Part shown: in pieces, positions 1 through 62,192 of the stretch
Position numbering within the stretch: the stretch's first letter is position 1
Layout of the letters: the number at the start of each line of letters is the position of its first letter
DNA from: Bolinopsis microptera
Taxonomy: Eukaryota > Ctenophora > Tentaculata > Lobata > Bolinopsidae
Assembly: GCF_026151205.1 (NCBI RefSeq)
Contig: NC_087079.1
Coordinates: forward strand, 8,794,635 to 8,858,634
Reading direction: 5' to 3'
DNA: 64,000 bases
Notes under the pieces: generated by a model
What the model was told of the DNA's origin: nothing
What the model saw: the letters and a program-made list of their open reading frames with translations, nothing else
Database searches by the model: none
Position numbers and translations under genes: made by a program

Positions 1-3000
1 CTTTGGTATATCGGGAGGAAATAAGTCTTTTATCGACGACGGCAGAAGGCCAGGCATGTAAGTTATCTTGTGCATCAGAGTCAGAGCATTTTTTATGATG
101 ACCCCGTGTACAGATAATATTTCGTACTCTTTAAACGTAGTTTTAGTATGATCCGGAAGCTTACCGTCCTTGTAATAGTAATTCACGTAGCCCGGCATAA
201 CTGCTCGTATTCCCTGCTTTTGTTTAGTGAACAGTGATTCAATATGGGATTTTGCAGCAAAGCCCCAAACTAGTGAACAGAAATTTAAGTGAGATTGTAC
301 AAAACTTTGGAAGATCTGTAAGCGTGCTTTGATTGGTAATTTGCGTTTTATTTTGAACATAATACCTATAAACCGTGACATTTTTGTTTTGACGGCTCGG
401 ATGTGGCTGGCCCATTTTAGTTTGTCGTCGACGATAACTCCTAAAAACCTGGCCTCCGTTTTGCGTTCTATAGGAGAGTTGTCGATACTTACTTGTAGAG
501 ACGATAGATCTACCCGTCTTTTTGAAAATACCATATAGCAAGTCTTCTTCAGATTAAGAGCTAGGCCGTTCGAGTTAACCCATTTTATCAACACGTCAGT
601 GAGGTGGTTTACTTTGGATATAATGTCTTGTACATTTGATCCGGTGATAATAATGTTTGCGTCGTCTGCGTATAATATAAATTTAGCTAGGTTACTGATT
701 CCTGGTAAGTCATTGATATATATGACAAAGAGCAGGGGGCCTAATATGCTCCCTTGTGGAACACCGTATATCATAGATTCTAATGATGAATTGGAGCCGT
801 TTAGGGAAACAAATTGACTGCGACCACTGAGGTATGACTCGAACCATTTCAACGCAATGCCACGAATACCGTAATGCTCAAGTTTCCTGAGTAATGTCGC
901 GTGATCTAGGACGTCAAATGCCTTGCTATAGTCTAAAAGTAATAAAAGTGCTATTTGGTTCTTATTTAGAGAATGCAGAATAGAGCTCTGAGCATTGAGA
1001 AGTGCGTGCTCACATGATCTTCCTGGTCGGAATCCGTACTGATTCTCGAATAGAGAGTTATTCTTGTCGAGAAATTCTAAAACGCGTCTGTGCATTAGTT
1101 TTTCATAAATTTTTGAGAACGAGCCCAGAAGCGAAATAGGTCTATAATTCGCTACGTCGAGTTTACAACCTCCTTTGTGTATAGGTGTAACTTTTGCCGT
1201 TTTCAAAGCTTTAGGGAAAGCTCCCTCTACAAAAGATGTGTTAACTACTTTTGCTAAGGCGCATAAAAAATTTTGGCATGTGCTGGCTATTTTCAAGGGC
1301 TCAATCTTTGAATCGAGAGTTGCCTTATTTTTTAGGCCAATAATAATTCTATGAATCTCGGTGGGCCCAGTAGGTTCGAGGTAGATAGACGTTGGACATG
1401 ACCCGGTCAGATACTCCTGGAACCCCCCAGGATCGAAGGTCTGTCGGGAACTGATCTGAGACTTGATGTTGGCTGCGATGCTGGAAAAGTAGCCATTGAA
1501 CTTTTCAGCGACTGCCGAGTTAGTACTCAAGATCGTCCCGTCAGTATCCCTCAATCTGATTTGATCAGATCCCCGTCTTTTTCTGTTTAGCAGGCCGTTG
1601 ATTATCTCCCATTGTTTTTTGGAACAGTCCTGATATTTTTCAAATTGTTTTTTGTAATACCGCTCCTTGGCAATGTTAACGTGTTTACTGCAAAATAGTT
1701 TCATTTTGTCGTATGCAGCTATGTTTTCATCAGTAGGCTCTGTGATATTAAGATGGTATAATTGCTGTTTACGTGCACAAGCTGTTTCGAGCCATGGAAG
1801 TATCCACGGCTTCGGATCAGACCGTTCATTTTCACGACGATTACGATTACTCTTAACGGGGTATGCAGTGTTGTAATGTTTCATGTAGATTTCTGAGAAC
1901 TTGTCATACTGTTCACTCGCACTGCCTGATTCCCGCGCTTCCTCCCACGTCTCCCCTTCCAATAGCTCCTTGAACATAGCATTGCTGGCTTCATTCATAG
2001 TACGTGTTTCACGGTATTTTGTGGTATCGGTCCTATTTGAGTGTGTGGTGTGCTTTTGTGATACTGCACGTAACTTTATAGTGGTCAACGTTGCAAGATG
2101 ATCGGAGATGTCGAGTGTTAACACGTTGCTACTTAATGTGTTTTCAATATTATTTGTGTACACATGGTCAATAAGGGTGGCACTGTGGTCAGTGACTCGT
2201 GTTGGTTTTGAAACAGTTTGAACAAAACCATATTTTGCCAGTGTGTCAATGAGGTTCTGGCTTGAGGAATCAGTGTCATATTTAATAAGATCAATATTTG
2301 CATCGCCATGAAACATAACGTGTTTGCGTGAGTGTCTATCTAGTCTATTAAGTACGTGATCGAGTAAGCTAATGAACTTATTTGTATCTCTTGACGGTGA
2401 TCTGTATAAATTTACTATAACCTTGGTTTTGTTAAAACCTTTGCAATTATGAATTTTGACTAGTTGGAACTCGCCACTCATGTCTTCAGGATCCAGAGCT
2501 AAGTCAAGACGTTCAATTTTATCAAAATCGCACACACGTTTGTTTATATAGATTGCTAACCCACCTCCTCTCCCCGATTTTCGTAAAGGTGCTTGTATAA
2601 CAGGTTCGTGAAAACCCTCGATTGTGATATCATCAATACCATTAGGCAGCTTATCAATGTTACAGTTAGTTTCATTAAAGCATAACACATCACATTTTGA
2701 GAAGGTGTGGATTTCTTCTCTAAGATATGTTATGTTTTTTGCTAGTGATCGTATATTTAATGAAAAAACTTTCAACTCGTCTTTGGCGGAGTTTGTGACG
2801 TTTTTAGGTTCTTGATATTTGCACTTGGTTAAGATTTCGCTTATTTCATTCCAGTATTCGTTGTTCATGTCACTATTCTGATCTAAACTATTGCCGATGG
2901 AATTTATTACGTGCGAGCGATCATATGGATTGAAACTAAGACGTGATGCGTGAAGGTGGTCGAACTTATCATAGAGATCGAATGTCTCTACATTGTAACC

Positions 3001-3180
3001 TGGAATCATTGATTCGCAACATCTGATGCAACCTAACGTTTCCTGGAAACATTTCCTATGCACATGGCCCTCGCACCATGCACAAGTACGCAAGTTAGAC
3101 TTAGAGTAACACCAGCCCGGACAGGCCGTGCATTTGATTTTAATTTTTTGACTATTGCTAACTTCACCGTTTGTGTTCAT
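1..3180 (-). CDS. CR1/jockey-type LINE ORF (zinc finger, endonuclease, reverse transcriptase), partial
   Basis: Reading the minus strand from the ATG at 3180-3178, I checked every codon to position 1 and found no stop, so at least 1060 codons are open and the C-terminus lies outside the window. The N-terminus has a PHD-like Cys/His cluster (about residues 15-55, with CTACPGW, CAWCEGHVHRKC and GCIRC). An APE-type endonuclease follows (SLNIRSL, NETNC, GRGGGLAIYIN, GDANIDLI, SDHLATL). The reverse transcriptase has NYRPISLL, GFRPGRS, DYSKAFD, GVPQGSILGPLLF and the catalytic YADD at about 658-675. These are hallmarks of non-LTR elements that cut the target and copy their RNA in place. The order and motifs fit the CR1/jockey group; the exact clade is not certain. 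It lies in an intron of the KDM6 gene in the same orientation. The undamaged frame suggests recent insertion or continuing activity. Confidence 0.88.
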   Translation of the reverse strand, partial: MNTNGEVSNSQKIKIKCTACPGWCYSKSNLRTCAWCEGHVHRKCFQETLGCIRCCESMIPGYNVETFDLYDKFDHLHASRLSFNPYDRSHVINSIGNSLDQNSDMNNEYWNEISEILTKCKYQEPKNVTNSAKDELKVFSLNIRSLAKNITYLREEIHTFSKCDVLCFNETNCNIDKLPNGIDDITIEGFHEPVIQAPLRKSGRGGGLAIYINKRVCDFDKIERLDLALDPEDMSGEFQLVKIHNCKGFNKTKVIVNLYRSPSRDTNKFISLLDHVLNRLDRHSRKHVMFHGDANIDLIKYDTDSSSQNLIDTLAKYGFVQTVSKPTRVTDHSATLIDHVYTNNIENTLSSNVLTLDISDHLATLTTIKLRAVSQKHTTHSNRTDTTKYRETRTMNEASNAMFKELLEGETWEEARESGSASEQYDKFSEIYMKHYNTAYPVKSNRNRRENERSDPKPWILPWLETACARKQQLYHLNITEPTDENIAAYDKMKLFCSKHVNIAKERYYKKQFEKYQDCSKKQWEIINGLLNRKRRGSDQIRLRDTDGTILSTNSAVAEKFNGYFSSIAANIKSQISSRQTFDPGGFQEYLTGSCPTSIYLEPTGPTEIHRIIIGLKNKATLDSKIEPLKIASTCQNFLCALAKVVNTSFVEGAFPKALKTAKVTPIHKGGCKLDVANYRPISLLGSFSKIYEKLMHRRVLEFLDKNNSLFENQYGFRPGRSCEHALLNAQSSILHSLNKNQIALLLLLDYSKAFDVLDHATLLRKLEHYGIRGIALKWFESYLSGRSQFVSLNGSNSSLESMIYGVPQGSILGPLLFVIYINDLPGISNLAKFILYADDANIIITGSNVQDIISKVNHLTDVLIKWVNSNGLALNLKKTCYMVFSKRRVDLSSLQVSIDNSPIERKTEARFLGVIVDDKLKWASHIRAVKTKMSRFIGIMFKIKRKLPIKARLQIFQSFVQSHLNFCSLVWGFAAKSHIESLFTKQKQGIRAVMPGYVNYYYKDGKLPDHTKTTFKEYEILSVHGVIIKNALTLMHKITYMPGLLPSSIKDLFPPDIPK

Positions 3181-4080
3181 GATGTTTTTAAATTTCGTTG
3201 TGAATTGATTAATCAAAATAAATGTTTATGATAAGGTATATAAGAATATATATGAAAGTCAGACCTGCTTCGCGAAAACTAACAGTTTTGTGAGCTAACA
3301 GATCCTGACTGATACTAATTTACACTAACTGATTAATAATCTTAACTATCTAAAACTAACTATCTAGCGAGTGTGCTAGTAGAGCAGCTTAACTTTGACT
3401 GTACTGTACTAAAACGTGTAACTTTAACTTGACTGTAGCTTAACCTCAACTGTACGAAAACTTGCTTAGTTTGGAACTTGTAAGACCTCGCCTACAATTG
3501 CACTCCGCATTACCCGTCCGTTAACAAACAAAAAACAAAACAAAAAAACTTTCATTAGGTGTGTTGATGTGTAATCAAAATATCATGTCAAAGATTTGTG
3601 ATGAATATGAGAGTTGGACGATATATGTGTATGACTGCTAAGTACTAAAATTGTCTTTGATTAAAATTTCGTAGCTGAATAATGGAGATAGTGGTAAAAT
3701 GAAAATCTTATCTGTAGTATTGCTATTTTAGGGGTGGCAGATAAGAAGTGGGCCCATTTATGCATCTGATTGTTTCTGATTGTTTAGTCGTGAGAGCTTA
3801 TTTGTGACACAATTAAATTGAATTAAATTAAAACAGCACGTGATTACATGTGCCGTATCGTGGCCAGGAGTTGACTCGTACATATATCACCAACAGAATC
3901 TCCTACCAAAACTAAACTAAAAATTCTCCAGCGTGTGATCTATCCTCAGTCAAAATATGACTAGCATAACACTTGATCTACAGATCATAACATTTCATTT
4001 CCCGATAACAAAAACTGTCTCAGTCGCAAGAGTTATTGATTAGAACTTGTTAGATCAGAAGCCTAAAATACACTTTTTAC
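3181..4080. other. KDM6 intron flank, including probable LINE 5' untranslated region
   Basis: No coding region is recognisable. The part next to the LINE start codon (about 3181-3530) is probably the element's 5' UTR, but its 5' boundary cannot be fixed because the other end, and so the target duplication, is outside the window. The run of A-rich sequence near 3525-3548 is a possible junction. The remainder is ordinary AT-rich intron leading to the exon ending at 4081. Confidence 0.4.
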
Positions 4081-7000
4081 CTGTGCTCCCCACTTTTTCT
4101 TATCCGATAAGTCAACATTTGTACCGAACTGTATCATCTTGAAATTAGTGAACCGCTTCGGTCCACGTCTTTTAACGCTGGCTAAGTCTTCGTGCTGAAA
4201 TACAGGAATGTTAAGGTTGTAATGCAGCCAAGACGGTTTTAGTATGTACATTAAAAATTATACTTCAGTTTTATATATAACTTAATATATCGTCACCTAT
4301 ATTATAGCTTGTACATAAAAAATATTGGTACCTCACTTTTATTATTTATAGATCTTTAAAACTTAATATCATCATCAAAAATTCAAAAGTTAGTACAAAT
4401 TTAATGGAATGTTATGTAATGAATAGTTCCAAACCTTGTCATTGCCTGATCTGTCTTGTTCTTCCTGTAGGAATTCTCTAAAAGTGCTAGCTTGGTATTG
4501 AGCATATTTTGTTATCGTTGAGTGGGAACGTGTACTTTCACACAGCCACTGCTTCTTTCTTCCCTGCCCGTTCTGAGATAATGTTAGTTTAGATAAATTT
4601 CGTGACCGATAAAGTTTATTACGCTGTAGCACTGATCTACCAAAATCGAATCACTTATTGAAATTGAACTGCAAGTTAAAGAATTCACATTTTTGACTAA
4701 TGACTGATGATGTCATGTTGTACAACAAAAGATAAACAAAACAGATCGAATCTAAACTAAAATTCGTAATCTGATCTACCTGAACATCCCAATTCTCGTC
4801 GGGAGACTGCTGCCACTGTGTCCTCACTTCCACCGGGTGGTCAGGGTTACTGTTCAACAAAGTCCGTGTGTTAAACATGGTCAAGTCCAGTCCCAGGACT
4901 TTGCAAAGTCCTTTGATGACAATGACTGGTTGTTGGGATTCCACACACAGGTCCCGGAGTGTTTTGGAGAATGCGTCTTCCCGCGTGGGAACCTGGAGAA
5001 GAAATGATGGGGTTAGGTGTGTGATAACAATAACATGAACCAGTTTTAAGCAGTATTTCGGATTCAAATTATATAGAAAAAAACTTTAAGCTGGCATCGC
5101 ATTAAAGCAGGGATTGGATTCTCATGACCGAAAGACATCATTTAAATCAAAATTGAAATATTTTCATGAATAAACGGAATTTAAAATATTTCATAGCACA
5201 TCGAGAAATATTTTGATTGTTGAGCAATGAATCCATACGTGCATACACATTACACAATCTAAGATATTAGAGGAAGTTTATCACAAATCCGGGCCCTGGG
5301 GTGAATGTTGTGACTACTTACTAGGGTTGAGTGTGTGATTACTTACTCTGATAGAGGGTGTGGTAGGGTTGAGTGTGTGATTACTTACTCTGATTGAGGG
5401 TGTGGTAGGGTTGAGTGTGTGATTACTTACTCTGATAGAGGGTGTGGTAGGGTTGAGTGTGTGATTACTTACTCTGATAGAGGGTGTGGTAGGGTTGAGT
5501 GTGTGATTACTTACTCTGATAGAGGGTGTGGTAGGGTTGAGTGTGTGATTACTTACTCTGATAGAGGGTGTAGTAGGGTTGAGTGTGTGATTACTTACTC
5601 TGGTAGAGGGTGTGGTAGGGTTGAGTGTGTGATTACTTACTCTGATAGAGGGTGTGGTAGGGTTGAGTGTGTGATTACTTACTCTGATAGAGGGTGTGGT
5701 AGGGTTGAGTGTGTGATTACTTACTCTGATAGAGGGTGTGGTAGGGTTGAGTGTGTGATTACTTACTCTGATTGAGGGTGTGGTAGGGTTGAGTGTGTGA
5801 TTACTTACTCTGATTGAGGGTGTGGTAGGGTTGAGTGTGGCAGGAGGAGGAGGGCGGGGAGGAGGAGAGGGTGGGGCGTTGTATACTTGCTTCATATCAC
5901 TGGCCTCTGACGGTATCTTTGCTGCCCAATGAGTCGGAACTGCAAATTTGGCTGTTAGCTCATCCTCCGATTATAACTTCAACAAAACATCATGATTCAA
6001 TCATATCTTCTGCATGAACAGTTAATACAATTACTAGTAGTTTAACTCGATTAAAAAGAATCATTTTGGACAATAAATCTTAGAATGACGACATAGTGTC
6101 GTACCTTCAGGTTTCTTGTCGAGTTTATTATCAGTTGAATTACCATCGCTAGTATCCATCTTCTCCTCTTTTTGTTGAGAAAATTTGCTCTACAAAATAT
6201 TTAAATAATTAAATAAATATGTATATTCTAACATTTATAACACGCTTCGACAGATACCCAAAAGAAGATACATTTAAGACATTCAAGCACGACTTAGAAC
6301 GGAAATATGATTTCCCGAGTGAATCAGCGGACATACAAAAGAAACTTTTAACGATATATCTAATTTATATCAAATTAACTATCTCATAAATACTAAATAA
6401 TAGCCCAATTAACACATGAATGAATCATATGCCACATTAAAACAATAAAATTGGCAGTTAAAATTCACAGATAAGTAGACAATCTGTTCCACCAATCATC
6501 TTACATTCAATTAAGCATTTAACAGTCTAAGATACAAAATAAAATATATGAAGTACGCTATTCTGACGCACGAGATGTTGGGTTTTGATCATTTTAAGGC
6601 TGTGTGTTGGCAAATTGAGGTCGGCTTTGGCAACTTTGCGGTCGGGTTTAGGTAAGATCAAGGTCAGAATATGTTGAGTCCCCATATAATATGTTAGAAT
6701 ACCTAAAGATACAAAACTCACGTCATTCTTAGTCTCCTTCTTGCTAGTGAGCTGAGCGGGTATGGGTAGTCTCCAGGCCTCCTGTATCTGGGGCAGACTG
6801 CTGTGTTGAGCTGCTCCTGTTCCTGATTTGCTGTTCAGCTGGCGTGATATCGCCTTTATGCGAGCCTGAGAGAGGTATTGTTATCAATAAGTCAATAGGT
6901 GTAGGATAACCTGGGCACGGCCAAAACTTTATATATTTTGATTTTAAACCGTCTAAGTAAAGATCTTCTTGGCTAAAACTCTATCGCTGGAGCTCAGATT

Positions 7001-10000
7001 ATGGTATGACTGTGGTCGACTTCAAGATGGTAGATACGGATCTAAATATAGAATAAAGTGATCTATAAATAGATCTAAAAGCCAAGGTGCCAACTCTCTT
7101 CGAACACCTTCTCCATCAACTTTATATTCAAACAATAATTACCTGCTGTACTAGCATTCGACGAAACTGCACTGGAAACTTGATAACTCTTACTTATATG
7201 CGATGTTTTTGAATGAGGCAAAATGTTCACCATAATAATAGTATGTTATATAATATGTATTATTTGTGAGTTTCGTAGCACGACTAGCAGGCTTTCCAAC
7301 GAGCTATGTGGGGTTCAAACCCCATTTTCTCACAATTTGGAACCCCTCTCCCTATATACTGTTTTATCAGAGTTTTACTGATTTACCTGTAGTTTAGCAA
7401 TAGGATCGTAGTATCCCTCCCCATCTAGATTCCTACTGAGCTCCACTGCCTTCTTGTAGCAAACCATTGCATCAGCCGGTTGCAGGTTCTGTTCGTACAA
7501 TATACCTGTAAAACATGCATGTGTGATATCACTGACACTATTAAAGGTTTAACGGGTGATATCATACGGTTCCCAGGGTTAACAACATGCGACATTATAA
7601 GGTTTGACTTATCTAATTGAAAATCTTTTCGAACACATACAAGAATACAGGATAACACAATTATTATAAAACATTTAAAACATGTGACATCATGGGTTTA
7701 ACTTTACGTTTGCAACACCGTGTCAAGTATACACATACCGTCATAAGAACCCATAAACCTTACTAACATCTACCACCGCCCACAGAAGCCTACCAACAAT
7801 ACAACTATTGTAAGAAAAAGTACAAGTTGATAGGTTAGGCCGCCAACTTGCACCCTTTACAACAATACAACTATTGTAAGAAAAAGTCAAGTTGATAGGT
7901 TAGGCCGCCAACTTGCACCCTTTACAACAATACTTCTTTGTTAGAAAAAGAGATTTTTACCTAAGTTAGTCCAGGCGGCACTGTGCTGAGAATCAATCTG
8001 CACCGCGCAAATGTACGCCTGCAGTGCATCCATGGGCTGGTGCTGATGCTGGTACAAAACTCTGAAATATTCATTAGGTTGAGGAGGGAATATTATGAAA
8101 TTTGTCCGTGTAATAATAACATTAGGAAGAGTGTTTTTGAGAAGTGAAACGAAATGAGTTAAAAGATTGCTGATTCCAGTGTGGCTCTCTTATACTATAC
8201 ATGGATTACCAATAATTGAAACGTAACTCACTTTAAAGACTTGAAATCAAATTTTAAGTACAACTCGGGCCTCGGCCTTATACAGTGTTTACTGTATAAC
8301 ACTTGCTGTTTACTGTATAATACTTACTGTATAAGAGCTTGCAGCTCCATCTGTATTTGAGATCTATTCCTGGATTTGAAGTCTATTGATCCATTCAAAA
8401 TACTGTACATGTAATTAGCATACATGTTAGGTTCGTCACAACATAGTATTCTGTCATGAGTTTGACGTGATAGTTTTAATATACGAATAAGTATTCAACG
8501 CTTGAGTGACTGAGAAATGAAAAATTGTTTAAATGGTTCACAACAAGCATTAGTTTTTTATTGTCCACAAAAACATCTAAAGTTGCCGAAAATATCATAA
8601 GTTAGCCAACAAAATGTGTTTAAACCTTACATAAATTTTTCGAATCCATAGAAAGGGCCTGACTGACCACACCCTCTTTTCTGACTCTAGTTTGAACTCT
8701 ACACAACTTTAACTAAAAATAAAGCTTTGTATCATATATATAAAGTTTATATTATATAAACGTACACACATCTCCGCCAAGTCCCCACATGACTGCTTTA
8801 CTGTAACTCATGAGGAACACACAAATTTACCCTTCTTCTATGTGATACACAACACAGCTATAACACAGATACTCAATATACAAATTGGCACTCTGACATA
8901 AAAGAAGAGATATTATAAGTCGTCATGTTACTCATTATATAATATCTCCGTTACTAAGGTTATACTATAGACCTCACTAACTGAGGGGAGGACACTTAGC
9001 GCACTCCTTCTAACACTGTGTAATTTAAATAACAATAGTATTATTATTATGTAACTCTGTAACTCTTTGTTATTAGTTATAATATTCATGAAATGATGAT
9101 GTGAGCCGTGGGCAAAGATTTTAATTAACGACAACGTCCTTTCGTGGCTATCAGTTATCACAAAAGTTAATGAACATTGAACAATTACAATAATAATGAA
9201 CAATAACAATAATAATGAAGAGTTTATAGTTAGTTACATTATATAATATGTATAAAGATAATGACTAACCCGATGGAACACCAAGTATCTGCATTACGAT
9301 CCAGTCTATCAATACTCTGTCTGTACGCTAAAAACGCTTCATTCACTTTGTTCTGTGCTGAATAACATCTCCCCAGAAAATACCAACTCTGTCAAATAAT
9401 AAAGGTAATTAATGAAGGTTCAACCTGATATAATCTATCGACTACATATTATATCAGTGTGTTTTATTAATACAGGAAGTTTAAATATAAAATATTGGAG
9501 TGGTATACTAACAAAACTAAACGAGTACTGCAATACAACGTGTACTTAGTGCTGTACTTAGTACTGCACTTAGTGCTGCACTTAGTGCTGCACTTAGTAC
9601 TGCACTTAGTACTGCACTTAGTACTGCACTTAGTACTGCACTTAGTACTGCACTTAGTACTGCACTTAGTACTGTACTTAGTACGGCACTTAGTACTGCA
9701 CTTAGTACTGCACTTGATATTGTACTTGATACTGCACTTAGTACTGCACTTAGTGCTGTACTTAGTGCTGCACTTAGTACTGCACTTAGTACTGTACTTA
9801 GTACTGTACTTAGTACTGTACTTAGTACTGTACTTAGTACTGTACTTAGTACTGTACTTAGTACTGTACTTAGTACTGTACTTAGCACTGTACTTAGTAC
9901 TGCACTTAGTACTGTACTCAGTACTGTACTTAGTAGTGTACTCAGTACTGTACTTAGTACTGTACTTAGTACTGTACTCAGTACTGCACTCAGTACTGCA

Positions 10001-12982
10001 CTTAGTACTTACTACCTGAGTCAATAAGTCTGGACATAACATTCGCATATTAATGAGATAGCATATAATGATATTGGCGAGTGTTACAATACACATGCGA
10101 TAACATGCAATCGCTCAAGCAGCAGATTGCGTCTAGGACAAACAAAAAACTCCACTTCTCTTCTAACCTGGCCATTGCTGGGATCAGTTTGTACAGATTC
10201 CAGCAGGAGAGGTTCTGCTTTCTGTATCCGGTGAATGTCGATGGTACTGGAGATACTGGAATGGTATAGCCAGCCTAGCTGCCTTAGTGTGCTGGCTCGA
10301 ACCTGGTGATGGGAATTTCAAAAACTGGGTACTTGTTATGTAAATTATGAGGAATTTATGTAAATTGTGAGGAAAGAGACTATGCCGGAAAAGGCTAATC
10401 TTTATAAATTTACCAAATTTGGATTTGAGCCAATATGTAGAAATAAACAAACTTATTTTGATTTATACAGCTCAATTATAACTCAGTTATTTAAAGTAGT
10501 ATGCGAAGTGATCTTGATAAAGAAACTTAATAAAGATAGGTAAAATTGTTACCTTGGACGGGACACTCTCCGTAGAAAGAATGGTTTCGTACATATCTTT
10601 AGCCAGGTTGAACTTTCCCTGAACCTCGTATAAATGGCCGATGTGGAAGCGGATCTCAAGAGGACTTAGAGAGCTGGGTGCAGTATCCAGGAGGGCGAGG
10701 TGGAAGTGCTGAAATGAGGGGGAGTTAATTGGTTTATTTAATTAATTATCAGTATGCAATGCTCAAATTTAATGGTTTTTTTATGCACCAAGTTCACGCC
10801 TTGATCTTGGCGCTTATCAGGGAACAGATGGTGCAAAACGTGAGATATACAATCGAATTCGTTAATTGGTTGATTGAAGCACGATAACTTTCCATTTTAT
10901 ATTTACTGAGAGTCCTGTCTTATTAAAAGGAATTGAGTTCGGCATATCTATCATATCTTAGAATCCAGAGGTTTTAAATTACAATTTTTCAAACATTACC
11001 GAGTCCGACTACAACCTTATACAGATTAGCATTATCATGGAAACATTGAATTATGTAACATATTTGAAATTTTAGACCCGAGATAATAGCCAAATACCAC
11101 GCCTTCCCACGGTCACAACGTACCTTCAGTGCAGCATTAAAGTCGTTCTTGTTTTTAAACATGATAGCAAGCCTGATGTGGACTTCGTTCTTGCGACTGA
11201 ATCCTGGATCAATATACAGGACTTGCTGCAGTGCTTTTGTTGCCCTGATAAAATGAGAGCAGGTTTATTATGTGGTAAAATGAGAGCAGGTTTATAATGT
11301 GATGATTTAACATGAATAATATAGAGTCTAAACTCTAAACAGTAAACTCCTAGTTTACAACAGGAGTGATATAGGGAAATGTTTAAAATGTGTTGTCAAG
11401 ATAAAGAATGAGCATGAAATCATCACGAAATTTAACATAACAAGTGTTTAAACGCCACTATTTTATTGCACACAACTGCACTCTGTAGTCTGAAGCAGTG
11501 AAACTGACCATTGAAAGGCGTTGAAGTGGAAGTAAACAAGACCCAGTCCGTACAGGAAGGCGGCGTTCTTCCAGTGTTCAGGGTGAAGTGTTATATACTC
11601 CTGGTACGCTGACATCGCTGGGGGATACAAAAATATAAGAGAAAGCATTTGAAAAACAGCTTGGAAACGGCTAGAAGTGCAGTTAAGTCCTTATCACGAA
11701 CTTAACAAGAATGATTATAATTTACTAATTATTAATTAATAACTAATATAATCTGACTAATTACCTTTGTCGTAATCCTCTAAAAGTAAGTGAAAATGTC
11801 CGAGCTGACAGAAGAGGTCAGGATTATCATAAGTTGAGTGAAGGAGCTTGTTCAGCTGCGATGTAGCCTAGAAACAGGGAGGTAGGGTAGCAGCTTAGCA
11901 GGTAAATAGTGGAACTAAAATCGAACTATTTACTTTTAGTTTTATTTTATCAGAGTGTTTATAGTTATGACTGTTTAGTGTTTACTAATGAAATTATTTG
12001 CAGCAGTCAGCTGGCACGCTCATGTTTAGCGTTACAAATCTCATTACTTTATTAACATTTCAAGGCTCAACCCCCCTCAGGGTTATGACATTTCACATTC
12101 ACACCATGTAGAACCTGGCCTTGCCCCTTACCATAACGTGAACCGAGTAGAAACCTGGCCTTGTTCTCCTAACCTGGCCTTTTTAGGGCCAGGGGGCCCT
12201 GTTCTCCCACCCTGATCTTTCCCCTTACCATAACGTGAACCGAGTAGAAACCTGGCCTTGTTCTCCTAATCTGGCCTTTTTGGGGGCAGGGGGCCCTGTT
12301 CTCCCACCCTGATCTTTCCCCTTACCATAACGTGAACCGAGTAGTAGAGTAACATGGCCTTGTCTTACCTGAGTCAAGTAAACTCTCTCTTCCTCAGCCT
12401 CTTTGTGTTCCTGACTCCCCTCCTCAGGACCCGGGCTAGAGTGTATCCTCAGGAACCCAAACAACCTGCTATCATACTGGCTCATACACTGGATCTCCTC
12501 CAGTTTAGAAGAAGGAGGAGGAGGAGGAGGAGGGTTACTCATAGGAAGAGGGGGAGGAGGATGTGACACCTGAGAGGAGAGGTGGACTGCATTTCTGATA
12601 GGAGGTTGGGGAGGAGGAGGACGGTTGGTGGTGTTGTCTGCAGCTGCTGGAGGGTGTTCCGGAGCTAGAGTGGAGATGGAATCTTTCGAAACAGCCACCT
12701 GTTGTGGTAATCTGATTAGAAACCTGATAGGGGGCTAACGTGATGGTTAGAAACGCTCATCTTACAGTTAATTTACTACAAGTACTAAGGATTGACAAGG
12801 ATCGGACTAATATGGTTTTCAAAAAGTATTAAGTAAAAGTATAGCAAGTCGAGAACTATTATCTTGTGCAAGGATTGTTAGTGCCCACAGATAGGGGCTT
12901 TTTGTTGAATTAATCAATAAAAATTTTAAATTTCATAAAAATATAATCTTACAGGTTGGGGAGGATGTGCGGACGATGTCAT
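4081..12982 (-). CDS. KDM6: KDM6/UTX-like histone H3K27 demethylase, N-terminal 16 exons (partial)
   Basis: Sixteen exons with matching phases encode 716 residues: 12953-12982, 12369-12698, 11765-11867, 11509-11617, 11124-11244, 10553-10708, 10168-10302, 9270-9388, 7961-8061, 7387-7505, 6722-6865, 6105-6189, 5809-5939, 4780-4992, 4435-4572, 4081-4194. Residues about 11-120 are proline-rich and end in the UTX signature YDSRLFGF. Residues about 121-441 are TPR repeats ([60 protein letters not shown]). A short linker leads to [13 protein letters not shown] and FGTNVDLSD, which in vertebrate UTX/UTY directly precede the JmjC domain. Family members are nuclear Fe(II)/2-oxoglutarate enzymes that remove H3K27 di- and trimethyl marks within MLL3/4 complexes. 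The JmjC catalytic exons are not in the window, so activity cannot be judged. The linker is much shorter than in vertebrates. The ATG at 12982 opens a ten-codon exon and is the best visible start, though an upstream exon is possible. Confidence 0.92.
5305..5838 (-). repeat. 42-bp minisatellite of exon-end plus 5' splice site
   Basis: Twelve full tandem units of 42 bp plus a partial thirteenth. On the sense (minus) strand each unit reads exon end ...CCCTCNATCAGA followed by GTAAGTAATCAC. Potential exon ends fall at 5809, 5767, 5725 and so on every 42 bases to 5347, with a variant GTAAGT at 5321. As 42 is a multiple of three and no stop occurs until the partial last unit, each later donor would add one 14-residue repeat ([14 protein letters not shown]) in frame. 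Units differ by single substitutions. Confidence 0.95.
5809..5939 (-). CDS. KDM6: KDM6 exon 13 with duplicated donor region
   Basis: The acceptor is TTTGCAG at 5940 and the first donor is GTAAGT at 5808-5803. The exon encodes a proline-rich linker ([15 protein letters not shown]) ending ...TTPSIR, which joins in phase 0 to exon 14 (VPTREDAF). This corresponds to the proline-rich stretch before the DAF motif of vertebrate UTX. Its last 30 or so bases and the donor are the founding unit of the adjacent 42-bp minisatellite, so the true exon end may vary between transcripts. Confidence 0.8.
7793..7948. repeat. Short tandem duplication, about 69 bp x 2.3, in KDM6 intron
   Basis: The block beginning CAACAATACAACTATTGTAA is repeated twice with one indel, followed by a diverged partial third copy that abuts the exon ending at 7961. 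Each unit contains an inverted pair (AAGTTGATAGG / GCCAACTTG). No coding content is seen. Confidence 0.85.
8062..9269. other. KDM6 intron without recognised feature
   Basis: AT-rich intron between the exons at 7961-8061 and 9270-9388. It has no long ORF with recognisable content, only short degenerate AT repeats such as the TGTTTACTGTATAA repeats near 8285-8325. Confidence 0.6.
9537..10012 (-). repeat. 12-bp minisatellite, about 40 copies, in KDM6 intron 7
   Basis: Sense-strand unit is TACTAAGTRCAG with a few variants. It lies about 150 bases upstream of the acceptor of the exon starting at 9388. Period 12 keeps all frames open on both strands, which explains the long spurious ORFs. Each unit contains a branch-point-like CTAAG and a CAG trinucleotide. 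Confidence 0.93.
12130..12368. repeat. 97-bp tandem repeat next to KDM6 exon 2 donor
   Basis: Copies begin at 12130, 12227 and 12324 (ACCATAACGTGAACCGAGTAG). The third, diverged copy runs into the real 5' splice site of exon 2 (GTAAGA, 12368-12363). The matching positions in copies one and two carry donor-like CAG/GTTAGG and CAG/ATTAGG on the sense strand, so the repeat seems to have grown from the exon-intron junction. Confidence 0.8.
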
Positions 12983-13864: not shown

Positions 13865-15640
13865 GAAACTAGAGGCAGGGAGGCAGTAAACTAGAGGCAG
13901 GGAGGCAGTTGTAATAAACTAGAGGCAGGGAGGCAGTTGTAATCAACTAGAAGCAGGGAGATAGTTATAATCAACTAGAAGCAGGGAGGCAGTTGTAATA
14001 AACTAGAGGCAGGGAGGCAGTTATAATAAACTAGATGCAGGGAGGCAGTTGTAATAAACTAGAGGCAGGGAGGCAGTTGTAATAAACTAGAGGCAGGGAG
14101 GCAGTTGTAATAAACTAGAGGCAGGGAGGCAGTTGTAATCAACTAGAGGCAGGGAGGCAGTTGTAATCAACTAGAGGCAGGGAGGCAGTTGTAATCAACT
14201 AGAGGCAGGGAGGCAGTTGTAATAAACTAGAGGCAGGGAGGCAGTTGTAATAAACTAGAAGCAGGGAGGCAGTTATAATCAACTAGAAGCAGGGAGGCAG
14301 TTGTAATAAACTAGAGGCAGGGAGGCAGTTGTAATCAACTAGAGGCAGGGAGGCAGTTGTAATCAACTAGAGGCAGGGAGGCAGTTGTAATCAACTAGAG
14401 GCAGGGAGGCAGTTGTAATCAACTAGAGGCAGGGAGGCAGTTGTAATCAACTAGAGGCAGGGAGGCAGTTGTAATCAACTAGAGGCAGGGAGGCAGTTGT
14501 AATCAACTAGAGGCAGGGAGGCAGTTGTAATAAACTAGAGGCAGGGAGGCAGTTGTAATAAACTAGAAGCAGGGAGGCAGTTATAATCAACTAGAAGCAG
14601 GGAGGCAGTTGTAATAAACTAGAGGCAGGGAGGCAGTTGTAATCAACTAGAGGCAGGGAGGCAGTTGTAATCAACTAGAGGCAGGGAGGCAGTTGTAATC
14701 AACTAGAGGCAGGGAGGCAGTTGTAATCAACTAGAGGCAGGGAGGCAGTTGTAATCAACTAGAGGCAGGGAGGCAGTTGTAATAAACTAGAGGCAGGGAG
14801 GCAGTTATAATAAACTAGAGGCAGGGAGGCAGTTGTAATAAACTAGAGGCAGGGAGGCAGTTGTAATCAACTAGAGGCAGGGAGGCAGTTGTAATCAACT
14901 AGAGGCAGGGAGGCAGTTGTAATAAACTAGAGGCAGGGAGGCAGTTGTAATAAACTAGAAGCAGGGAGGCAGTTATAATCAACTAGAAGCAGGGAGGCAG
15001 TTGTAATAAACTAGAGGCAGGGAGGCAGTTGTAATCAACTAGAGGCAGGGAGGCAGTTGTAATCAACTAGAGGCAGGGAGGCAGTTGTAATCAACTAGAG
15101 GCAGGGAGGCAGTTGTAATCAACTAGAGGCAGGGAGGCAGTTGTAATCAACTAGAGGCAGGGAGGCAGTTGTAATCAACTAGAGGCAGGGAGGCAGTTGT
15201 AATAAACTAGAGGCAGGGAGGCAGTTGTAATAAACTAGAAGCAGGGAGGCAGTTATAATCAACTAGAAGCAGGGAGGCAGTTGTAATAAACTAGAGGCAG
15301 GGAGGCAGTTGTAATCAACTAGAGGCAGGGAGGCAGTTGTAATCAACTAGAGGCAGGGAGGCAGTTGTAATCAACTAGAGGCAGGGAGGCAGTTGTAATA
15401 AACTAGAGGCAGGGAGGCAGTTATAATAAACTAGAGGCAGGGAGGCAGTTGTAATAAACTAGAGGCAGGGAGGCAGTTGTAATAAACTAGAGGCAGGGAG
15501 GCAGTTGTAATCAACTAGAAGCATGGAGGCAGTTGTAATCAACTAGAGGCAGGGAGGCAGTTGTAATAAACTAGAAGCAGGGAGGCAGTTGTAATAAACT
15601 AGAGGCAGGGAGGCAGTTGTAATAAATTAGAGACAGGCTA
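13865..15640. repeat. 28-bp minisatellite, about 62 copies, with higher-order pattern
   Basis: Unit begins GGCAGGGAGGCAGTTGTAAT and ends (A/C)AACTAGA. Most copies are near identical, differing at an A/C site, a G/A site (GAGGC/GAAGC) and TTGTAA/TTATAA. The variant pair AGTTATAATC recurs at 14271, 14579, 14971 and 15251, spacings of 308, 392 and 280 (11, 14 and 10 units), so multi-unit blocks were duplicated. It lies about 0.9 kb upstream of the KDM6 start codon. Confidence 0.95.
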
Positions 15641-61401: not shown

Positions 61402-62192
61402 GGTTGTAAGAAAGAATACCAATAATCCGTTTGTGCACTGAACCCCTAGCAGAATACTATTTGTGTACTGAACCTCTAGCAGAATACTGCTTGTGTATTG
61501 AACCTCTAGCAGAATACTGCTTGTGCACTGAACCCCTAGTAGAATACTGCTTGTGCACTGAACCCCTAGCAGAATACTATTTGTGTATTGAACCTCTAGC
61601 AGAATACTGTTTGTGCACTGAACCCCTAGCAGAATACTGCTTGTGCACTGAACCCCTAGCAGAATACTATTTGTGTATTGAACCTCTAGCAGAATACTGC
61701 TTGTGCACTGAACCCCTAGTAGAATACTGCTTGTGCACTGAACCCCTAGCAGAATACTGCTTGTGCACTGAACCCCTAGTAGAATACTGCTTGTGCACTG
61801 AACCCCTAGCAGAATACTGCTTGTGCACTGAACCCCTAGCAGAATACTATTTGTGTACTGAACCTCTAGCAGAATACTGCTTGTGCACTGAACCCCTAGC
61901 AGAATACTGCTTGTGCACTGAACCCCTAGCAGAATACTGCTTGTGCACTGAACCCCTAGTAGAATACTGCTTGTGCACTGAACCCCTAGCAGAATACTGC
62001 TTGTGCACTGAACCCCTAGTAGAATACTGCTTGTGCACTGAACCCCTAGCAGAATACTGCTTGTGCACTGAACCCCTAGCAGAATACTGCTTGTGCACTG
62101 AACCCCTAGCAAGTAGCAGAATACTGCTTGGAGCATTGCAGCGCCAGGTATCCCAGTGCATATTTGGAACATCGGTATTCTTTCTTACGACC
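61402..62192. mobile_element. 30-bp minisatellite bounded by inverted repeats (element C)
   Basis: GGTTGTAAGAAAGAATACC (61402-61420) and the complement of GGTCGTAAGAAAGAATACC (62174-62192) form 19-bp inverted ends with one mismatch. TAAGG-like bases just outside extend the match with a small gap. Between them are about 23 copies of a 30-bp unit (TGCTTGTGCACTGAACCCCT plus AGCAGAATAC). No clear target duplication is seen. With period 30, both strands stay open for over 250 codons; these ORFs are not taken as genes. Confidence 0.65.
61428..62130. repeat. 30-bp minisatellite, about 23 copies
   Basis: Units vary at few sites (CACTGAACCCC/TATTGAACCTC, TAGCAG/TAGTAG, CTGCTTG/CTATTTG). The variants alternate in a pattern suggesting block duplication, for example the CTATTTGTGTATTG variant followed by normal units. 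Confidence 0.95.

Follow-up and report, generated by a model that had tools for sequence, protein, structure and literature searches.

A minisatellite with the features of a mirage repeats a KDM6 5' splice site in the ctenophore Bolinopsis microptera

Introduction

Minisatellite-like duplications of intron–exon boundaries, known as mirages, have been described in the amphioxus genes Adh3, BflGb6 and BflGb9 (both globins), and troponin C, and PGBD5 carries repeats similar to mirages (PMC3087553, PMC3902484). According to the excerpts of these reports considered here, the repeat units measure 10–72 bp in Adh3 and 150–160 bp in BflGb6, and two BflGb6 haplotypes carry six and three units. Mirages apparently do not interfere with regular splicing, and RT-PCR also suggests that splicing is regular. 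Somatic instability is reported for the Adh3 mirages, and mirages may seed new introns (PMC3087553, PMC3902484).

Several other systems link repeats or neighboring splice sites to variable splicing, again as described in excerpts of the papers cited. Human duplicated genes contain internal tandem repeats at exon–intron boundaries that show mixed splicing (PMC2812944). Tandem alternative donors of the GYNGYN type give subtle protein variants through the choice between neighboring 5' splice sites (PMC1779574). Minisatellites are also found near alternative splicing in Caenorhabditis elegans (PMC4039745). Among the open-licence papers listed in our searches, none describes donor arrays for any ctenophore. 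Excerpts of three ctenophore genome papers contain no mention of minisatellites or introns and one unrelated tandem repeat (PMC11797021), no mention of tandem repeats or minisatellites (PMC12221973), and no mention of tandem repeats or introns (PMC10232365).

Here we describe a boundary-spanning array in a KDM6 gene of B. microptera. The gene lies on the minus strand of a 64,000-nucleotide stretch of contig NC_087079.1 (positions 8,794,635 to 8,858,634), which is called the window below and is numbered from its first base.

Results

A KDM6 exon end and its 5' splice site are repeated in tandem

The array begins 31 nt within a KDM6 exon, and the left edge of its exact periodicity is position 5839 (Table 1). 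The repeat unit, CTCAACCCTACCACACCCTC(T/A)ATCAGAGTAAGTAATCACACA, joins the end of the exon to the start of the intron. Each of the 12 units comprises 27–31 nt of exon and 11–15 nt of intron, and the intron portion copied in every unit is GTAAGTAATCACACA, with GTAAGT included. The minus strand reads CAGA/GTAAGTAAT 12 times, where the slash marks the splice junction, with last exon bases at 5809, 5767 and so on to 5347 in steps of 42. The G positions of GTAAGT in donors 2–12 are 5766, 5724, 5682, 5640, 5598, 5556, 5514, 5472, 5430, 5388, and 5346. A thirteenth GTAAGT, in a truncated unit, may be a leftover of the ancestral intron start.

A chance arrangement is ruled out by the 12.3 copies at 98% matches. 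A dispersed repeat is likewise ruled out, because the 635-bp stretch from 5305 to 5939 has itself as its sole match in the window's own genome (264,652,675 bases, 232 contigs) when very common words are skipped.

Table 1. Positions in the window of the KDM6 features, and exon context of the arrays sampled elsewhere in the genome
Feature	Position	Strand	Basis or remark
42-bp minisatellite	5322..5839	-	12.3 copies, 98% matches, 0% indels, score 1001 (TRF)
Donor 1, exon-proximal GTAAGT, proposed main 5' splice site	5803..5808	-	Motif positions, homology, U1 pairing
Donors 2–12, one common phase	5341..5766	-	Motif positions, frame
Donor 13, GTAAGT within truncated unit CCCTA/GTAAGTAG	5316..5321	-	Last exon base 5322
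KDM6 exon as made with donor 1, 143 nt, KFAVPTHW...	5809..5951	-	Homology, frame; acceptors by eye
Next KDM6 exon, ...ENWDVQ, acceptor CTCCAG/GTTCCC common to all donors	4780..4992	-	End counted by eye
Following KDM6 exon, ...GNDK	4435..4572	-	Ends approximate, by eye
Following KDM6 exon, ...KKWGAQ	4081..4194	-	Ends approximate, by eye
Upstream KDM6 exons with TPR-like repeats, several, boundaries approximate	7375..11690	-	Pfam
Donor-spanning arrays L020, L039			Sushi-type exons
Donor-spanning arrays L035, L036			Dynein heavy chain exons
Donor-spanning array L038		-	LMF1-type exon, 65-bp unit
Donor-spanning array L069			USP-type exon
Donor-spanning array L070			DPH2-like exon
Donor-spanning arrays L072, L079, L080, L082, L084			Coding exons by eye
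Probable donor-spanning array L071			First GTGAGT may itself be exonic
Likely donor-spanning array L011			
Arrays starting at a donor or no more than about 60 nt past it: L004, L037, L074 (probable)			Kinase (L004)
Arrays abutting a 3' splice site: L038 (14-bp array), L066, L073			Exon on strand opposite to motif in each
Neither: L018, L034, L061, L075, L076, L077, L078, L081, L083			

The array sits at the edge of the catalytic module

The peptide made with donor 1 aligns without a gap over the exon junction to human KDM6A, UTY, and KDM6B, and gaps appear only further on. Its E values are 1.4e-48 to KDM6A (3avr_A) and 4.3e-43 to KDM6B (2xxz_A), and the KDM6A segment facing the junction is LNPPTPSIYLENKRDAF. 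The gene continues past the window into two intact exons (L002) with the motifs GHQENNN and GAIHWVQ (E 1.9e-54 to UTY). Alignment to UTY places the JmjC signature H-x-E ... H of the KDM6 (UTX/UTY/JMJD3) demethylases in these exons, and we take the histidines and the glutamate of the two motifs to be the JmjC iron ligands. Upstream, an exon-by-exon Pfam scan found TPR_1 in four of six KDM6 ORFs, with E values from 7.4e-05 to 0.025, every one below the Pfam cut-off. By eye, a second acceptor 12 nt further into the exon that carries the array would likewise preserve the frame.

The solved UTY chains start two residues ahead of the match to the donor-1 peptide, and the insertion point therefore falls within this catalytic construct instead of a free linker. 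An initial, sequence-only reading of this DNA had put the repeats in a linker between the TPR half and the JmjC domain. That placement is not supported: residues would instead be added inside the solved constructs, at the N-terminal edge of the catalytic module, where every copy restores LNPTTPSI beside the junction.

Other features were noticed around the gene. An unbroken 1075-aa frame on the minus strand (1–3225, open at the window start) is, by eye, like that of a non-LTR retrotransposon, with endonuclease and reverse transcriptase; it lies within the KDM6 intron that separates the exon at 4194–4081 from the L002 exons. The window holds further large minisatellites at 9541–10013 (12 bp × 39.5), 13867–15637 (28 bp × 63.5), and 61431–62111 (30 bp × 22.7), the first of them seemingly in a KDM6 intron. 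Downstream of KDM6, also on the minus strand, an SMC1-like gene with an unbroken 1092-aa frame (L003, C8:8782633-8779358) lies beside an FtsJ-type methyltransferase, both judged by eye.

Twelve of the 13 donors keep the frame

When donors 1–12 are each joined to the exon that starts at 4992, the frame is retained in all 12 cases. Products of the later donors have 14-residue units inserted upstream of a rebuilt LNPTTPSIR at an unchanged junction. The 12 units translate as LNPTTPSI(T)RVSNHT without a stop, and they vary at two synonymous sites and by one I-to-T change. Joining donor 13 to 4992 causes a frameshift that leads to a stop. The sequence-only reading had reported a 42-bp minisatellite that starts shortly before a KDM6 exon ends and copies this exon end together with GTAAGT, on which TRF and the motif positions agree, and a unit that is divisible by three and free of stops, as the translated units bear out. 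The 12 donors that it listed do share one phase; it had missed the thirteenth, which shifts the frame.

Predicted pairing with the U1 5' end is −8.0 kcal/mol for each of donors 1–12 and −7.2 kcal/mol for donor 13 in the best register. On the minus strand of the window, 56 of 4032 GT sites pair with U1 at least as well as −8.0. A 561-nt stretch of the RNA folds with z = −2.05 (3 of 100 shuffles as good), and the copies fold much alike, which led us to reject an RNA structure that singles out one donor. Neither U1 pairing nor the RNA fold provides a mark that distinguishes donor 1.

Donor motifs form arrays across the genome

Three GTAAGT words spaced 24–54 bases apart give 17,994 matches in the genome versus 3,129 for the reversed pattern. 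The single hexamer occurs 160,744 times versus 153,150 for its reverse. The excess over the reversed control is 5.75-fold for array matches and 1.05-fold for single hexamers. For AGGTAAGT, there are 1,491 array matches versus 12 reversed, and 10,758 versus 7,965 single words. A poorer donor, ACGTAAGT, gives 158 versus 76 array matches, with single words at 4,548 versus 6,402. Counts of the array pattern alone, uncorrected for single-word frequency, are 1,351 versus 188 for AGGTGAGT and 7472 versus 1574 for the acceptor-like TTTCAG.

These numbers count matches and not arrays, so long arrays weigh heavily in them; the array at C1:428574 has 44 AGGTAAGT in a row. Some matches also belong to a dispersed family that carries its own array, as seen in the 32-bp AGGTAAGT arrays with common flanks at C1:36576-37703 and C1:761375-762150. 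Among the matches listed, the first 1.29 Mb of C1 hold at least nine GTAAGT arrays on the plus strand (the minus-strand array at C1:36576 fits the pattern yet is absent from this plus-strand listing). The reversed control shows at least five arrays on both strands up to 3.74 Mb, again among the matches listed, two of which are inverted copies of each other. For this end of one chromosome, and among the matches listed, array density is about 7 (GTAAGT) versus about 0.7 (reversed) per Mb and strand. By rough extrapolation, the genome would hold one to a few thousand GTAAGT arrays, perhaps half of them on donors. From these counts, donors in the B. microptera genome look like minisatellite hotspots.

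Many sampled arrays span a 5' splice site

Flanks were read for 29 arrays besides KDM6, and exons were called by eye from an open frame with AG and GT signals. The sample takes in all nine listed GTAAGT arrays and all nine listed AGGTGAGT arrays, three of the five listed AGGTAAGT arrays (the other two were already in the GTAAGT set), and seven of the 12 new listed ACGTAAGT arrays, with periods of about 29 bp or more; the five shorter-period arrays were omitted. The minus-strand array of L038 was met by accident. In fourteen cases, the array runs across a coding exon's 5' splice site; three others start at such a site or shortly after it, three adjoin a 3' splice site, and nine show neither relation (Table 1). 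Because the motif search favors donor-like words, it overstates the proportion of arrays at 5' splice sites, a bias that does not account for the three at 3' splice sites.

Some of these exons could be assigned by Pfam. LMF1_C (2.3e-28, L038 exon) and Pkinase (6.2e-13, L004) scored above the cut-off, and dynein AAA_8 (1.7e-05) and AAA_9 (0.00069), UCH (0.00055), and Sushi (0.004 and 0.024) fell below it. A Pfam scan of the L011, L037, and L070 exons gave no match; the last of these, which we take to resemble DPH2, had no match in the PDB either.

Three local observations concern the form of these arrays. Only about 3–8 nt of intron are included in the unit in L035, L038 (minus strand), L039, L070, and L079 (the last by eye), so that the duplication stops almost where GTRAGT stops, a pattern partly forced by the hexamer search. 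One LMF1-type exon (L038, C1:1290400-1291600, minus strand) is flanked twice: a 14-bp array reaches its 3' splice site, and a 65-bp array crosses its 5' splice site. At L036 (C1:884300-885500), the donor array is immediately preceded by a dynein coding stretch that is itself duplicated (171-bp period, 1.9 copies, 100% match).

Few other arrays keep the reading frame

A later GTRAGT (GTWAGT in L011) was scored as usable if it is in phase with the first donor and the intervening sequence is free of stops, with frames judged by eye; L072 was judged from its translation, which meets a stop two codons past the donor. Later donors that are both in phase and open number 11 of 12 in KDM6, six of 11 in L011, and two of 28 in L039. 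Within the sequence examined, 12 of the 14 donor-spanning arrays besides KDM6 have none. The first step is divisible by three in four of the 13 arrays for which it was computed (L011, 39; L020, 54; L036, 57; L039, 102), which matches chance. L011 and L020, with consensus periods of 39 and 54, also have off-frame steps. Arrays that break the frame include the LMF1-type one at about C1:1289226-1291121, a dynein one at C1:858865, and one at C7:2815843. These arrays do not keep the frame beyond chance, as regulated arrays of alternative 5' splice sites would.

Because 12 of the 14 arrays lack an in-phase, open later donor, most of these genes cannot make wide use of later donors. About one array in four to six would be expected to be in frame and open by chance, given that one-third of units would be in frame and that the intron part would be open in perhaps one-half to four-fifths of cases. 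Read in one of its three phases, GTAAGT yields TAA. With so few usable later donors in the other donor-spanning arrays, the in-frame array of KDM6 looks like a chance case.

Discussion

From the anatomy, frame, homology, and sampled class, all read from the sequence, we infer use of the first donor, birth at a microhomology, and tolerance of the extra units. The account that we judge probable is that of a mirage minisatellite born by duplication of a boundary, in which donor 1 is the main site and the extra units are tolerated, and which belongs to a class common in this genome. A segment over the KDM6 exon end and the first intron bases would have been duplicated in tandem, perhaps via the CACA present on both sides of the junction, as the one junction inspected closely suggests. 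Slippage or unequal exchange would then have expanded it to 12 copies.

The donor after base 5809 would have stayed the main splice site throughout, and the other 11 units would therefore normally be removed as intron. Donor 1 is most likely the working site, and the extra donors are most likely silent. A leaky series of minor isoforms may arise from the later donors, and their occasional use would add 14-residue repeats just ahead of the JmjC module with LNPTTPSI still at the junction. As the length of the unit is by chance divisible by three and the unit contains no stop, the array is probably tolerable rather than useful.

Several considerations count against this account. All 12 donors have equal predicted U1 pairing, and their copies fold much alike. 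The unit in KDM6 stays open and keeps the frame, as a functional use of later donors would require, and that of L011 partly does so. Furthermore, among several identical strong donors, the intron-proximal one can win when U1 is abundant, and long KDM6 isoforms would therefore be favored.

If the later donors were used, alternative choice among the 12 might yield functional KDM6 proteins that differ by 0–11 additional 14-residue repeats, a series that would also vary with copy number between individuals. The sequence-only reading had proposed such a series as a device for a length-variable linker, and any of the 12 donors would indeed give a translatable product. The donors are in phase, open, and of equal predicted strength, each product keeps the same residues at the junction, and variation among the units amounts to two synonymous sites and one I-to-T change, all of which agree with a functional series. 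However, the zero-repeat form made with donor 1 by itself aligns gap-free with human KDM6A, UTY, and KDM6B, and the scarcity of in-phase, open later donors in 12 of the 14 other arrays indicates that such genes do not generally use their later donors. We also set aside selection acting on the repeat peptide, for which the three variant sites in the 12 units give too little to go on. We consider a functional series unlikely, and the proposed device is not supported.

The later donors could also be used often and their unproductive products lost to nonsense-mediated decay, in which case copy number would tune KDM6 expression and not protein length. Donor 13 fits this role in that it is the most intron-proximal donor, is nearly as strong as the others (−7.2 vs −8.0), and shifts the frame to a stop. 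Yet 12 of the 13 donors give open products, so that preferential use of the last donor would be required, and many other genes would be loaded with dead transcripts. This explanation seems to us very improbable. Least probable of all is an assembly artefact or wrong copy number at a locus that truly has few or no extra donors: long arrays are difficult to assemble, but this one is just 518 bp, its units bear distinguishable variants in a non-uniform order, and comparable arrays lie on other exons.

The mirage account, with donor 1 as the main site, leads to a broader proposal on which we find belief and doubt evenly balanced. In this proposal, minisatellites would arise systematically at 5' splice sites, arrays of near-identical donors would terminate many hundreds of exons, and the spliceosome would reliably take the first. 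KDM6 would be an uncommon in-frame member of this class, in which any leak is translated and hence visible.

Taken singly, the KDM6 array is one more mirage minisatellite, and its weight comes from the class and from the choice among equal donors. If donors are hotspots genome-wide, the genome holds many natural contests in which 3 to about 44 near-identical 5' splice sites follow one another, and 12 of the 14 donor-spanning arrays sampled besides KDM6 allow no use of a later donor without a frameshift or a stop. With such arrays, one could test whether a cell picks among equal donors by which was transcribed first, by exon definition, or by distance, and whether splice sites generate minisatellites or just tolerate them. 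The KDM6 array should be a good reporter because the products of its later donors are translatable.

Comparison with known systems

The KDM6 array resembles GYNGYN-type donors in that protein variants could come from a choice among neighboring 5' splice sites, although here this is a potential. The GYNGYN type is a short motif with two close donors and lacks a repeat array. Closer in structure are the boundary repeats of human duplicated genes, where, in the excerpts considered, a boundary minisatellite is retained in or spliced from the exon (PMC2812944). In contrast to KDM6, those repeats belong to recent primate paralogues and are described as forming novel introns, not runs of near-identical donors (PMC2812944).

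The nearest relatives are the amphioxus mirages. By the features tested, namely a tandem unit of minisatellite size that spans an exon–intron boundary and copies its splice signal in 12 units, the KDM6 array falls among the mirage minisatellites, a class already described in amphioxus. The gap-free homology of the donor-1 form lends indirect support to regular splicing of KDM6. The case at hand comes from the sequence of one assembly, and it differs from the amphioxus examples, as far as these are covered by the excerpts, in its ctenophore host, its 12 in-frame donors, and the presence of arrays on many sampled exons. The ctenophore host would extend a phenomenon that we found reported for amphioxus to the far side of the animal tree. 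In both animals the unit lies over an exon–intron boundary, and many of the amphioxus mirages also copy the AG/GT splice signals.
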